Shown here: positions 20,969 to 25,331 of the stretch, one piece after another
Numbering within the stretch: the stretch's first letter is position 1
Layout: every line of letters begins with the position of its first letter
DNA from: Pseudomonadota bacterium
GTDB taxonomy: Bacteria > Pseudomonadota > Gammaproteobacteria > Xanthomonadales > Rhodanobacteraceae
DNA: 38,287 bases
Direction of reading: 5' to 3'
NCBI GenBank assembly: GCA_021815695.1
Contig: JAKAZT010000006.1
Span: 1-38,287, forward strand
Program-made: the position numbers and the translations under genes
Notes under the pieces: generated by a model
What the model saw: the letters and a program-made list of their open reading frames with translations, nothing else
Database searches by the model: none
Told to the model about the DNA's origin: nothing

Positions 20969-22153
20969 TCACCGCAGCCCCGCGGCGTGCGCGGCCAGCC
21001 GACGCTTGAGCGCGGGCAGCCGGTCCAGCGCGCGCATGCCGAATCCGCGCAGCGCCGTCCACGGTGCGGCATCGATCGCGAACGCGCGGGCGATGGCGTC
21101 AAAGCCGTGGGCGTCGAGCGTGTCGGCGCTGCGCCGGCGGCGCGCATAGCGGCGCAGCACGCTGTCGGCACCGATGTCGGTGCCGGCATCGCGCGCGACA
21201 CTCAGCACGGCAACCAGCTCGGCGACGTCGCGCAGGCCCAGATTGATGCCCTGCCCCGCCAGCGGATGCACCGCGTGCGCGGCGTCGCCCAGCAGCAGCA
21301 GGCGGGTCGCGGCAAAGCGTTGTGCCAATCCCAGGCGCAGCGCGAACGCCGCGCGCGGCGTCGTCGCCCGCACCCGGCCGAGCCGGAAATCGCTGCCGGC
21401 GCCGACCGCGGCGCAAAAATCCGCATCGTCCAGCGCCAGCACCCGCGCCGCCTCGGCCTCCGGCAGCGACCACACCAGCGAGACGCGGCCGTCGGCCAAC
21501 GGCAGCAAGGCCAGCGGCCCGCCGGGCAGGAAACGCTGCCAGGCGGTGTCGGCATGCAGGCGCTCGACGTCGAGATGCGCGACCACCGCGCGCTGGCCGT
21601 AGTCGCGGCCGCGGCTGGCGATGCCGAACGCGGCACGCAGCGGCGAATCGCGGCCGTCGGCGGCGATCAGCAGCCGCGCCGCCAGCGTGCTGCCGTCGTC
21701 CAGAGGTACCCGCACGCGGCCGCTCTCCTGCACCGGTGCGCCGACCGCCACCGGTGCGCGACATTCGACACCGGCCGCCGCCAGCGCCTGCCACAAGGCC
21801 GACTGCACCAGGTTGTTCTCGACGATCCAGCCCAGCTCGTTGCGATCGAGCAGCGCGGCGTCGAAACCGAACTCGGCGCCGCTGGCGGCGTCCCACACGC
21901 GCATCGCGCGGTAGGGCGAAACGCGCGCCGCGGCGACCGTCGACCACACGCCCATCCGATCGAGCAGTCGCGCCGAGGACGGCGCCAGCGCCACCACGCG
22001 CAGATCCGCCGGCGCGGCCGGCGACCACGTCGGCGGACGCTGGCGGTCCAGCAGCGCCACCGCGAAGCCGGCCTGCGCCAGGGCCAGTGCCGCCGCCGCG
22101 CCGGCCATGCCGCCGCCCACGATCAGCACGTCGAGCGGACGCCGCGCGCTCAC
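20969..22153 (-). CDS. ubiI: FAD-dependent ubiquinone hydroxylase, UbiI/VisC-like
   Basis: 394 residues. N-terminal Rossmann FAD site (DVLIVGGGMAGAAAALALAQ), a central RLLIAADGRDSPLR motif and the C-terminal FAD/ribityl motif LLLGDAAHAVHPLAGQGINL place it in the UbiH/UbiI/VisC family. These enzymes add hydroxyl groups to the ubiquinone ring; UbiI acts at C5. It follows ubiH with a 4-base ATGA overlap, the same order as E. coli ubiH-ubiI, which is the main reason for choosing UbiI over UbiF or UbiM. Ring position specificity is not readable from sequence by eye. Confidence 0.82.
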   Translation of the reverse strand: MSARRPLDVLIVGGGMAGAAAALALAQAGFAVALLDRQRPPTWSPAAPADLRVVALAPSSARLLDRMGVWSTVAAARVSPYRAMRVWDAASGAEFGFDAALLDRNELGWIVENNLVQSALWQALAAAGVECRAPVAVGAPVQESGRVRVPLDDGSTLAARLLIAADGRDSPLRAAFGIASRGRDYGQRAVVAHLDVERLHADTAWQRFLPGGPLALLPLADGRVSLVWSLPEAEAARVLALDDADFCAAVGAGSDFRLGRVRATTPRAAFALRLGLAQRFAATRLLLLGDAAHAVHPLAGQGINLGLRDVAELVAVLSVARDAGTDIGADSVLRRYARRRRSADTLDAHGFDAIARAFAIDAAPWTALRGFGMRALDRLPALKRRLAAHAAGLR

Positions 22154-23358
22154 GGCCCGGGCTCCAGCACGGCGCGCGGCGGCTGACCGCGAAAGCCCAT
22201 GCCGCGACGGGCGATCGCGCGGCGCAGCGGCGGCAGCGCAGCGGCCGTCAGCAGTGCCAGCGAGGTCAGCGGCCGCAACGCCGGTTCCGCCAGTCCGCCC
22301 AGGCGCACCAGACCATGGCTGGCGCGCGCGGTGCCGTCGCGATCCGCCGCGCGCTGCGCGGCGTAGGCGGCGAGCCGCTCGGACGCGCCCGGGTCGACCG
22401 CCCCGGCGACGTGTTCGGCCAGCGTCAGCGCGTCGCGCAACCCGAGGTTGAAACCCTGTGCGCCGACCGGGTGCAGGGTCTGCGCGGCATTGCCGATCAG
22501 CACCGCGCGCGACGCGATCAGCGACTGCGCCAGCACGCCCCGGATTGCATAGGCATGGCGCCGCCCCGGCCGCGTCAGGCGTCCGACCCGCGCGCCGAAG
22601 CGCGCCTGCGCCAGCGCGAGATAACCGGCATCGTCCAGCGCTGCCACGGCGTCGGCTTGTGTCGCGGGCACGCTGAGCACCAGTCCGGCGCGACCCTGCG
22701 GCAGCGGCAGCAGCGCGGTCGGACCGTCATCGCCGAAGCGCTCGAAGGCGCAGCCGTCGAGCGCTTTCTGCGGCGTCAGCGTGCACACGAACAGGGTCTG
22801 CGCGTAGTCGAGGGTCGTCGCGGCAATGCCCAGCGCCGCGCGCACCCCGGACGACGTGCCGTCGGCACCGACCAGCAGCCGCGTCCGCAGCATGCGCTCG
22901 CCGTCCGCCAGCGCCAGCCGCGCGCGCCAGCCCGCGGCATCGGGTTCGAGTCCGGTCACGGTCGCCGGCGCCAGCCGCGTCAGCCGGGTGCAGGCCTCCA
23001 GGCGCGCCAGCAACGCGGCACCCAGCGCGCGCGCCGGCAGCGTATGGCCGAAACTGTCCAGACCGAGCTCGGCCGCATCGAGCCGGGTCGCGCCGAAGAC
23101 GCCCGCACGGCTGACGTGGACGCGACGGATCGGCGCGGACTCATGCGCCGCCAGCGGCCATACACCCAGCGCGGTCAGGCCGTTGACGGTGGCGCGCGCG
23201 AGCGCCAGATTGCGCTCGTCATAACCCGGATGCGCATCGGCGCGCGGTGGCGCGCTCTCGACCAGGGTGGCGGCGATGCCGGCGACATCCAGCGCGATCG
23301 CCAGACTGGCGCCGACCAGACCGCCGCCGACGATCAGGATCTCGGTGGACTCGACCAT
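22150..23358 (-). CDS. ubiH: 2-octaprenyl-6-methoxyphenyl hydroxylase
   Basis: 402 residues of the same flavoprotein family as its neighbour. The FAD dinucleotide motif is EILIVGGGLVGASLAIALD, the middle motif RLLVGADGTSSGVRAALGI, and the late motif VLIGNAAQTLHPVGAQGFNL. The GNAAQTLHP form is characteristic of UbiH rather than UbiI/UbiF (GDAAH). It hydroxylates C1 of the ubiquinone ring precursor. ATG at 23358. It heads the ubiH-ubiI pair and is divergent from the histidine-phosphatase-like gene across 212 bases that contain a large palindrome. Confidence 0.9.
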   Translation of the reverse strand: MVESTEILIVGGGLVGASLAIALDVAGIAATLVESAPPRADAHPGYDERNLALARATVNGLTALGVWPLAAHESAPIRRVHVSRAGVFGATRLDAAELGLDSFGHTLPARALGAALLARLEACTRLTRLAPATVTGLEPDAAGWRARLALADGERMLRTRLLVGADGTSSGVRAALGIAATTLDYAQTLFVCTLTPQKALDGCAFERFGDDGPTALLPLPQGRAGLVLSVPATQADAVAALDDAGYLALAQARFGARVGRLTRPGRRHAYAIRGVLAQSLIASRAVLIGNAAQTLHPVGAQGFNLGLRDALTLAEHVAGAVDPGASERLAAYAAQRAADRDGTARASHGLVRLGGLAEPALRPLTSLALLTAAALPPLRRAIARRGMGFRGQPPRAVLEPGP

Positions 23359-23387
23359 CCCCGAATCATACGCGGCACGACTGGTGT

Positions 23388-23538
23388 GGTGTCTCGGAAG
23401 TACGCGCCAGCGATTGCCGATGGATTTCGCTGCGAGACCAGGCGCGACGAGGAGTCATGGCCACGCCATGGCGACGCGGCGCAACGCCGTATCGCGCCGA
23501 AAGACGCGGGAATGACGGATGCGTATTTCCGGGACACC
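23388..23538. repeat. 151-bp imperfect palindrome (long hairpin element)
   Basis: Outer 18-base arms GGTGTCTCGGAAGTACGC and GCGTATTTCCGGGACACC match at 16 of 18 positions, with both differences being G-T wobbles. They are placed exactly symmetrically around the central CATGGC-CAC-GCCATG (centre 23463). Between them a further stem pairs 425-435 with 492-502 (10 of 11, counting from 23000), and a small GGCG-CAA-CGCC hairpin protrudes on the right side. The element fills most of the gap between ubiH and the next gene. It has no ORF. It may be a MITE-like or REP-type element, or a regulatory structure. Confidence 0.65.
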
Positions 23539-23542
23539 GCAC

Positions 23543-23548
23543 TAAGAT
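23543..23548 (+). promoter_or_regulatory. Possible -10 element of the phosphatase-like gene
   Basis: TAAGAT followed by GCCGC, 22 bases before the ATG at 23571, immediately outside the palindrome. It overlaps the alternative upstream ATG at 23547, which favours the later start. Confidence 0.3.
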
Positions 23549-23570: not shown

Positions 23571-24176
23571 ATGCAACTGATCCTGGTCCGCAGCGGCCGC
23601 GCCGAGGCGCCGGCCGGCACGCTGCGCGGCCAGGCCGACCTGCCGCTGGCGGTGGACGGCTTCACCGCGATGCAGCGATTGGCAACGCATTGGACCGGTG
23701 CCGCGCCGCGGTTCCTGTTCTGTTCCGACCAGCGCCGTGCAGTGCAGAGCGCGCAGGTACTGGCGGGACGCTTCGCGCTGGCACCGCTGGCCGACACGCG
23801 CCTGCGCGAGCTCGATCTCGGCCAGTGGAATGGGCTCAACTTCGCCCGCGCCGCTGCCGCCGCGCCGCAGGATTGGCAACGCTGGAACGCCGACTGGCAG
23901 CACCACGCAGCGCCCGGTGGCGAGAGCTTCACGCAGCTGCTGGCGCGCGTGCGCGCCTGGCTGGATGCCGTGCTCGACGCCGCCCAGCGCGACGACCGCG
24001 TGCTGGCCGTCGCGCACGAGGGCAGCATCCGCGCCCTGCTCTGCCATGCACTCGGACTGGATCTTCCGCAGGCCCGCGCGCTGCGCGTGGATTGCGCCGG
24101 GGTCAGCGCGATCGCCGTCCGCGACGGGCGCTTTGAAGTATCCTATTTGAACTGCCCGCTGTTTCTTTCCGACTGA
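23571..24176 (+). CDS. Histidine phosphatase superfamily protein with Ser replacing the nucleophilic His
   Basis: 201 residues (209 if the ATG at 23547 is used). The fold signature is clear: MQLILVRSGRAEAPAGTLRG where LxRHGxT is expected, then SDQRRAVQSAQVLA with the phosphate-binding Arg55, RELDLGQWNG with Glu80, and the late VAHEGSIRALLCHALG with His149. The second residue of the RHG motif is Ser8 (codon AGC), so the usual phosphohistidine cannot form. Its position 11 bases before a DUF6580 membrane protein gene and close to a cobalamin adenosyltransferase suggests descent from a CobC-like alpha-ribazole phosphatase. It may be inactive, a binding or regulatory protein, or use another mechanism. 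Confidence 0.85.
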   Translation: MQLILVRSGRAEAPAGTLRGQADLPLAVDGFTAMQRLATHWTGAAPRFLFCSDQRRAVQSAQVLAGRFALAPLADTRLRELDLGQWNGLNFARAAAAAPQDWQRWNADWQHHAAPGGESFTQLLARVRAWLDAVLDAAQRDDRVLAVAHEGSIRALLCHALGLDLPQARALRVDCAGVSAIAVRDGRFEVSYLNCPLFLSD

Positions 24177-24187
24177 GGCTCCGCCCG

Positions 24188-24754
24188 ATGCAGCCTGCCG
24201 TTGCAGACCGCCGCTTTTCGCCGCGCTTTCTGGTGTTGACCGGGATGATCGCGCTGGCGATCGGCGTGCGCCTGCTGATTCACTTCGTGCCCGGCGTGCT
24301 GCCGTGGAACTTCACGCCGGTCGAGGCGCTGGGCCTGTTCGGCGGCGCGTATTTCAGCTCGCGTCGCGACGCCTTCCTGGTGCCGTTGGCGGCAATGGCG
24401 CTCTCGGACCTGGTCATCGGCCTGCATCCGCTGATCCCGGTGGTCTATGCCTGCATCGCCGGCAGCGTGCTGCTCGGCTTCGGCCTGGCGCAGCGGCCGG
24501 GCGTGCTGCGCGTGGTGCTGGCCGGAATCGCCAGCGCCAGCGGTTTCTACCTGATCACCAACTTCGCGGTCTGGGCGACCTCGGCGATGTATCCGCACAA
24601 CGCAGCCGGTCTGATCGCCTGCTACGTCGCCGGCCTGCCGTTCTATCCGGCGACGCTGGCCGGAACGCTGGTGTGGAGCGGCGTGCTGTTCGGCGGCTAC
24701 GCGCTGCTGCAGCGACGCTGGCCGGCGCTGGCCGCGGCGACCCAGGCGACCTGA
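24188..24754 (+). CDS. DUF6580-family membrane protein (ECF S-component-like, possible cobalamin transporter)
   Basis: 188 residues with about six hydrophobic segments (roughly 14-34, 42-56, 62-79, 81-101, 108-131, 139-173). It matches the DUF6580 pattern as I remember it: PWNFTPVEALGLFGGAYF, FLVPLAAMALSDLVIGLHP, YLITNFAVWATSAMYP and CYVAGLPFYPATLAGTLVWS. Such proteins resemble solitary S-components of ECF vitamin transporters. The adjacent adenosyltransferase gene and Cys89 in VVYACIAGSV invite comparison with BtuM, which binds cobalamin through a cysteine; whether the two families are homologous I cannot verify here. GAGG lies 9 bases before the ATG. It is co-directional and closely spaced with both neighbours. 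Confidence 0.75.
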   Translation: MQPAVADRRFSPRFLVLTGMIALAIGVRLLIHFVPGVLPWNFTPVEALGLFGGAYFSSRRDAFLVPLAAMALSDLVIGLHPLIPVVYACIAGSVLLGFGLAQRPGVLRVVLAGIASASGFYLITNFAVWATSAMYPHNAAGLIACYVAGLPFYPATLAGTLVWSGVLFGGYALLQRRWPALAAATQAT

Positions 24755-24770: not shown

Positions 24771-25331
24771 ATGGGCAACCGTCTCTCGAAGATCTACACC
24801 CGCACCGGCGACGACGGCAGCACCGGGCTGGGCGACGGCACCCGGGTACCCAAGGACGCCGCCCGCGTCGCCGCCTACGGCACCCTCGACGAACTCAACA
24901 GCGTGCTCGGCATGGTGCTCGCCTGCGCCGACGTGCCGGCGCCGCTGCGCGCCGAGTTCACGCGCATCCAGCACACGCTGTTCGATCTCGGCGGCGAGCT
25001 GTGCATCCCCGGCACGGCGTTGGTGGACGACGCCGACGTGACGTGGCTGGAGCAGACGCTGGACCGCCACAACGAGGATCTGCCGGCGCTGAAGGACTTC
25101 ATCCTCCCCGGCGGCAACATGGCGGCGGCGACCTGTCATCTGGCGCGCACGGTGTGCCGCCGCGCCGAGCGCGACGCGGTGGCTCTGGCACGCATCGAGC
25201 CGGTGCGCCCCGAGGCGCTGCGCTATCTCAACCGCCTTTCCGACCTGCTGTTCGTGTACGCCCGCGTGCTGGCACGCGTCGGCGGCCACGGCGAGGTGCT
25301 GTGGCAGCACGCGCGCCGTCGGGGCGGCTGA
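24771..25331 (+). CDS. Cob(I)alamin adenosyltransferase, PduO type
   Basis: 186 residues; transfers adenosyl from ATP to cob(I)alamin to make coenzyme B12. The PduO/MMAB signatures are present: KIYTRTGDDGSTGLGDGTRV at the N-terminus, AYGTLDELNSVLG, FILPGGNMAAATCHLARTVC, and the ATP-contacting RRAERDAV followed by YLNRLSDLLFVYARVL. This type is unrelated in fold to CobA/BtuR. It starts 16 bases after the membrane protein gene and its stop overlaps the next ATG by one base. No corrin-ring synthesis genes are in the window, so it more likely serves salvage of imported corrinoid. Confidence 0.93.
   Translation: MGNRLSKIYTRTGDDGSTGLGDGTRVPKDAARVAAYGTLDELNSVLGMVLACADVPAPLRAEFTRIQHTLFDLGGELCIPGTALVDDADVTWLEQTLDRHNEDLPALKDFILPGGNMAAATCHLARTVCRRAERDAVALARIEPVRPEALRYLNRLSDLLFVYARVLARVGGHGEVLWQHARRRGG

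Follow-up and report, generated by a model that had tools for sequence, protein, structure and literature searches.

Loss of the phospho-accepting histidine in a CobC-like protein at a B12-linked locus of a Rhodanobacteraceae genus

The locus and residue 8

The window is the whole stretch of DNA analysed, 38,287 nucleotides of contig JAKAZT010000006.1. The genes and codons that matter here are as follows.

22150..23358, minus strand: divergent FAD-binding monooxygenase, which we take to be UbiH-like; conserved at this place in most relatives and used as a synteny marker
23571..24176, plus strand: CobC-like protein of histidine phosphatase fold, 201 amino acids, Ser8 standing where RHG has its histidine
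23592..23594, plus strand: codon 8, AGC (Ser), at the catalytic histidine position; TGC or GGC in congeners, CAY in all other genera examined
23736..23738, plus strand: Arg56, a pocket arginine that is kept throughout the alignment (SDQR-R56-A)
23808..23810, plus strand: Glu80, the branch-1 acid/base position; kept in the window protein, Ala in G002, G004 and G005
24015..24020, plus strand: His149, the retained pocket histidine, then Glu150, which is genus-invariant and absent from the sister genera
24188..24754, plus strand: DUF6580 membrane protein, 11 bp downstream of the phosphatase-like gene
24771..25331, plus strand: PduO-type cob(I)alamin adenosyltransferase, by profile matches

The 201-residue frame at 23571-24176(+) is free of stops, begins with MQLILVRSGRAEAPAGTLRGQADLPL and reads LVRSGRAE, the family counterpart of RSG being RHG. 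The preliminary description had reported this replacement through an AGC codon, and it is confirmed by translation and by a full-length match to Pfam His_Phos_1 (residues 3-195, profile 1-193 of 194, E 1.5e-44). The predicted fold is intact and confident (pLDDT 95, pTM 0.91), and both profile and solved-fold comparisons place the protein in the branch-1 histidine phosphatase superfamily, taken as a family of fold and homology. Activity in this superfamily needs two histidines and two arginines, and the eponymous histidine is the nucleophile (PMC10218301). In the product of 23571-24176 this phospho-acceptor is Ser, while the second pocket histidine and both arginines (His149, Arg7, Arg56) are present, as is an acid/base glutamate, Glu80. 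The preliminary description was thus right about Glu80 and His149 and wrong about Arg55: the arginine that never varies in the pocket is Arg56.

The search for homologues covered the 13 genomes of the genus, 234 genomes of the family and 399 sampled in the order; loci were extracted with their flanks and then compared with the window neighbours for synteny. On all contigs of sufficient length, the genus has the divergent FAD-dependent monooxygenase, the phosphatase-like gene and then DUF6580-PduO-HDAC-like-LptD. Among the genomes whose flanks were examined, the locus is also recognisable in the sister genera g2, g9, g15 and g5, the exception being one g5 genome, G085, which has no window neighbour within the examined stretch. 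In g15 the orthologue lies on the same strand as cobS and 20 bp downstream of it.

Between the monooxygenase and the phosphatase-like gene, at ~23382-23546, lies a repeat of ~161 bp with imperfect inverted ends (GTGTCTCGGAAGTACGC ... GCGTATTTCCGGGACAC), with about 15 matching places across the genome. G007 and G009 lack the repeat at this site, and the G006 contig stops near it. ACT flanks the repeat on both sides, suggesting a 3-bp target duplication.

None of the 12 readable species of the genus has His at residue 8. Nine have Cys (all TGC), two have Gly (GGC; G008 and G004) and one, the window genome alone, has Ser (AGC). G003, which is 77% complete, yielded no orthologue, and in G002 the gene lies in two parts at the ends of two contigs. 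The histidine is kept, as CAC or CAT, in all 26 orthologues from g2, g5, g9 and g15, and is also found in six more distant homologues of the order. An isolated loss or sequencing error confined to the window genome, with RHG in all its relatives, is therefore ruled out by the 12 of 12 readable congeners without His: the loss is genus-wide. Ser8 as a conserved functional state is likewise ruled out, being found in 1/12; the idea that Ser might be conserved at this column does not hold, the genus state being Cys, with Gly arising twice. The earlier argument that His to Ser takes two base changes also fails, because close relatives have TGC, one base from AGC. The nearest relative, G006 (98% identical), carries Cys TGC at codon 8, so that Ser is a single base from its likely predecessor. 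On the assembly alone, AGC may be a sequencing or assembly error for TGC; the loss of His is unaffected, because the alternative codon is that of Cys and not of His.

On a gene tree whose alignment left out residue 8, the genus forms one clade (support 100/100), and residue 8 changes a minimum of four times. This agrees with a change from His to Cys on the stem of the genus, followed by Cys to Ser once and Cys to Gly twice. Cys is both the commonest state (9/12) and the most parsimonious ancestral state of the genus, as would be expected if Cys had replaced His as phosphate acceptor in the genus ancestor, giving a cysteine-nucleophile phosphatase of which the Ser and Gly forms were later inactive derivatives. 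We consider this very improbable: Cys has been lost independently three times with no other obvious damage, and the Cys-bearing G002 and G005 also lack Glu80.

Compensation by a CobC-like paralogue with an intact RHG was also considered and set aside. Such paralogues are present in seven congeners (E around 1e-14 to 1e-19); none was found in the window genome, G006, G007 or G009, some of these being incomplete drafts, and the paralogue neighbourhood in G004, inspected by eye, contains no B12 genes.

B12 context of the locus

Neither CobS nor CobT was detected in the 13 genomes of the genus, seven of which are at least 90% complete, and controls were detected. The genomes are mostly draft assemblies and that of the window is 88% complete, so the case for absences in it depends on the better congeneric genomes. 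Alpha-ribazole phosphate, put forward earlier as an assay substrate, is thus a compound that these cells probably do not make. The 12 genomes tested from g2, g5 and g9 likewise gave no CobS or CobT; all four g15 genomes that were tested have both.

In g15 a second histidine phosphatase, with RHG, lies directly downstream of cobT (L133, that is G026 contig 12, 557000-566000). This genus has two candidate CobC enzymes, one beside cobS and one beside cobT, either of which could be the alpha-ribazole phosphatase, and the second makes the ancestral substrate ambiguous.

In g2, g5 and g9 (L058, L062, L063 and other loci) the RHG histidine is kept despite the lack of detected CobS and CobT. The phosphatase of these three sister genera is therefore probably used outside nucleotide-loop assembly, and the loss of that pathway alone is insufficient to account for the loss of His.

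Between the phosphatase gene and PduO, g5 has a BtuM relative (8c7p, E 4e-31), and g1, g2 and g9 have DUF6580 in this slot. In Thiobacillus denitrificans, BtuM binds B12 and its gene co-localises with an adenosyltransferase gene (PMC6072759). With this slot and PduO, the surviving operon looks like one for B12 uptake and adenosylation rather than for nucleotide-loop assembly. No cobalamin riboswitch family of Rfam was found in the window or in 11 orthologous loci.

The DUF6580 protein (24188-24754) may itself be a B12 importer, since it shares its slot with the g5 BtuM relative, adjoins PduO and resembles ECF S-components. The top matches of its structural model are the S-components FolT, ThiT and RibU, at weak scores (probability 0.84-0.99, E 0.2-0.9); a comparison of its sequence with solved structures gave no match. 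All 15 homologues compared share its Cys89, and in BtuM the cobalt ligand is a Cys. The locus ties the uncharacterised family DUF6580 to B12 handling, because a relative of the cobalamin transporter BtuM fills the same place in g5.

Constraint on the gene and its possible role

Pairwise dN/dS within the genus (Nei-Gojobori, which is rough for short genes) is 0.05-0.31 for the His-less gene, within the range of the neighbouring genes in the same pairs. The values are 0.05 for G000-G006, 0.21-0.25 among G000, G007 and G009, 0.06 for G001-G010, 0.14-0.16 for G008 with G011 or G012, and 0.31 for G004-G005. No internal stops were reported in the genus orthologues. With dN/dS as low as that of its neighbours, the gene is maintained by purifying selection. 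The orthologue that still has His, in g9 and g15, is held more tightly than its neighbours (0.12-0.15 versus 0.20-0.42).

The constraint has changed in kind. Of the positions invariant in the sister genera, 46% are kept in the phosphatase-like protein of the genus, versus 73-87% in five neighbour proteins, and ten such residues are absent from every congener, versus 0-6 in the neighbours. Together with the low dN/dS, this means that ancestral constraints have been released specifically in the phosphatase-like gene while overall purifying selection persists. Ten positions (5% of columns) have become newly invariant in the genus; these new constraints are suggestive only, because DUF6580 shows a similar number (nine in 188).

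Release of this kind could mark a relict in slow decay after the loss of nucleotide-loop assembly, kept in frame by chance or by its place in the operon. The sequence of losses is what such decay would leave: His throughout the genus, then Glu80 (to Ala) in three of the 12 congeners, G002, G004 and G005, and the RHG glycine in two of the 12, G011 and G012, which read RCA instead of RCG. Strict conservation is gone at 54% of the sister-invariant positions, and CobS and CobT are undetected in the genus. Against this, the gene stands at the same locus in twelve species with an open frame, its dN/dS is like that of its neighbours, its fold is predicted with high confidence and some positions are newly invariant. 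We regard decay as improbable, and the view that the gene is kept for binding, regulation or changed chemistry, already advanced in the preliminary description, is the better reading of a protein whose fold, gene position and purifying selection have all been retained.

In the pocket, His149 is present in 11 of 11 readable congeners, and Arg56 is also never lost. In a column comparison, Glu150 (HEG for HAG) is found in 11/11 orthologues of the genus and in 0/26 from the sister genera, and it stays in G002, G004 and G005, where Glu80 is gone. In branch-2 'HD' enzymes the acid adjoining the pocket histidine works as acid/base, which offers an analogy for Glu150. The protein could therefore still be a phosphatase, in which Arg7, Arg56 and His149 hold the phosphate for direct attack by water and Glu80 or Glu150 serves as acid/base. 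When the nucleophilic His of fructose-2,6-bisphosphatase is replaced by Ala, the enzyme reportedly keeps part of its activity in just this way. The variation of residue 8 between Cys, Gly and Ser and the wide release of ancestral constraints would, however, be unusual for an active catalytic pocket, and the protein has gained genus-specific residues no more often than DUF6580 has. Water-attack hydrolysis ranks as the main rival, with slow decay next, and we consider it unlikely.

The reading we favour, and hold to be moderately probable, is that of a CobC relict left after the loss of nucleotide-loop assembly and maintained as a His-less pseudophosphatase that would bind a phosphorylated ligand and act with DUF6580 and PduO. 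The ancestral gene would have been a CobC-type phosphatase serving B12 nucleotide-loop assembly. With the loss of cobS and cobT it would have been left in an operon for B12 uptake and adenosylation; in the ancestor of the genus the phospho-accepting His8 would then have become Cys, and later, in the window lineage, Cys would have become Ser. The classical two-step reaction through a phosphohistidine should be impossible, since His8 is absent. Binding is a usual reason for keeping such pseudoenzymes, and the remaining clamp (Arg7, Arg56, His149) can hold a phosphate; it is for these two reasons that a pseudophosphatase binding a phosphorylated ligand is favoured. The fold and clamp would most likely serve to bind this ligand without formation of a phospho-enzyme, and the two neighbouring products, the DUF6580 membrane protein and the PduO adenosyltransferase, would be its partners in binding or regulation. 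The persistence of Glu80, His149 and both arginines in the window genome speaks against this reading, as do the partial activity reportedly kept by at least one superfamily member after a His-to-Ala change, the His-bearing sister genera in which CobS is undetected and the second phosphatase of g15.

A wider proposal, which we put forward as doubtful, is that across the whole genus a CobC phosphatase with covalent catalysis has lost its His and taken up a new function in capturing or adenosylating B12. It would either bind a ligand through its phosphate clamp, as the partner of a B12 importer formed by DUF6580, or hydrolyse its substrate non-covalently by means of the His149-Glu150 pair, which is specific to the genus.

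Judged from the sequences, a B12-linked phosphatase has probably become a non-classical protein that is perhaps no longer catalytic. The one histidine that gives histidine phosphatases their name is here lost throughout a genus. The series from His in the sister genera to Cys, Gly and Ser, under purifying selection like that on the neighbouring genes, is a natural experiment on the origin of pseudoenzymes. It also bears on whether the phosphatase fold can work without its nucleophile.

Comparison with known systems

Pseudophosphatases of this superfamily and altered RHG motifs are already known. Cf60 of Dictyostelium (cited in PMC7926622) is a branch-2 histidine-phosphatase-like pseudophosphatase and sets a precedent within the superfamily; unlike the window protein, it is a secreted, eukaryotic, branch-2 protein in another context. 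PGAM5 belongs, like the window protein, to branch 1 and has RHG altered to RHS, but it keeps its histidine and is an active enzyme (PMC5501728). The literature searched yielded no naturally His-less bacterial member of branch 1 and no CobC orthologue with a Cys/Gly/Ser series across a genus.

CobC gives the best matches by TM-score among solved structures (0.92-0.93; E. coli 6e4b and Shigella 6nru). The best NCBIfam model is also that of alpha-ribazole phosphatase, TIGR03162, at 138.1 bits, under the curated cut-off of 162.9. Unlike CobC, the window protein lacks the catalytic histidine, scores below that cut-off and belongs to a genus in which CobS and CobT are undetected (0/13 congeners). 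It shares with CobC the fold, the g15 orthologue beside cobS and the PduO neighbour.

By E-value the best match, in sequence as in fold, is instead phosphoserine phosphatase 1 of Hydrogenobacter thermophilus (4ij5), the H9A mutant coming first in the fold comparison. We know of no B12 context for this enzyme, and in its natural form it has the histidine that the window protein lacks. The crystallised H9A laboratory mutant (4ij6) has lost that histidine, and its structure indicates that the fold is compatible with the loss.
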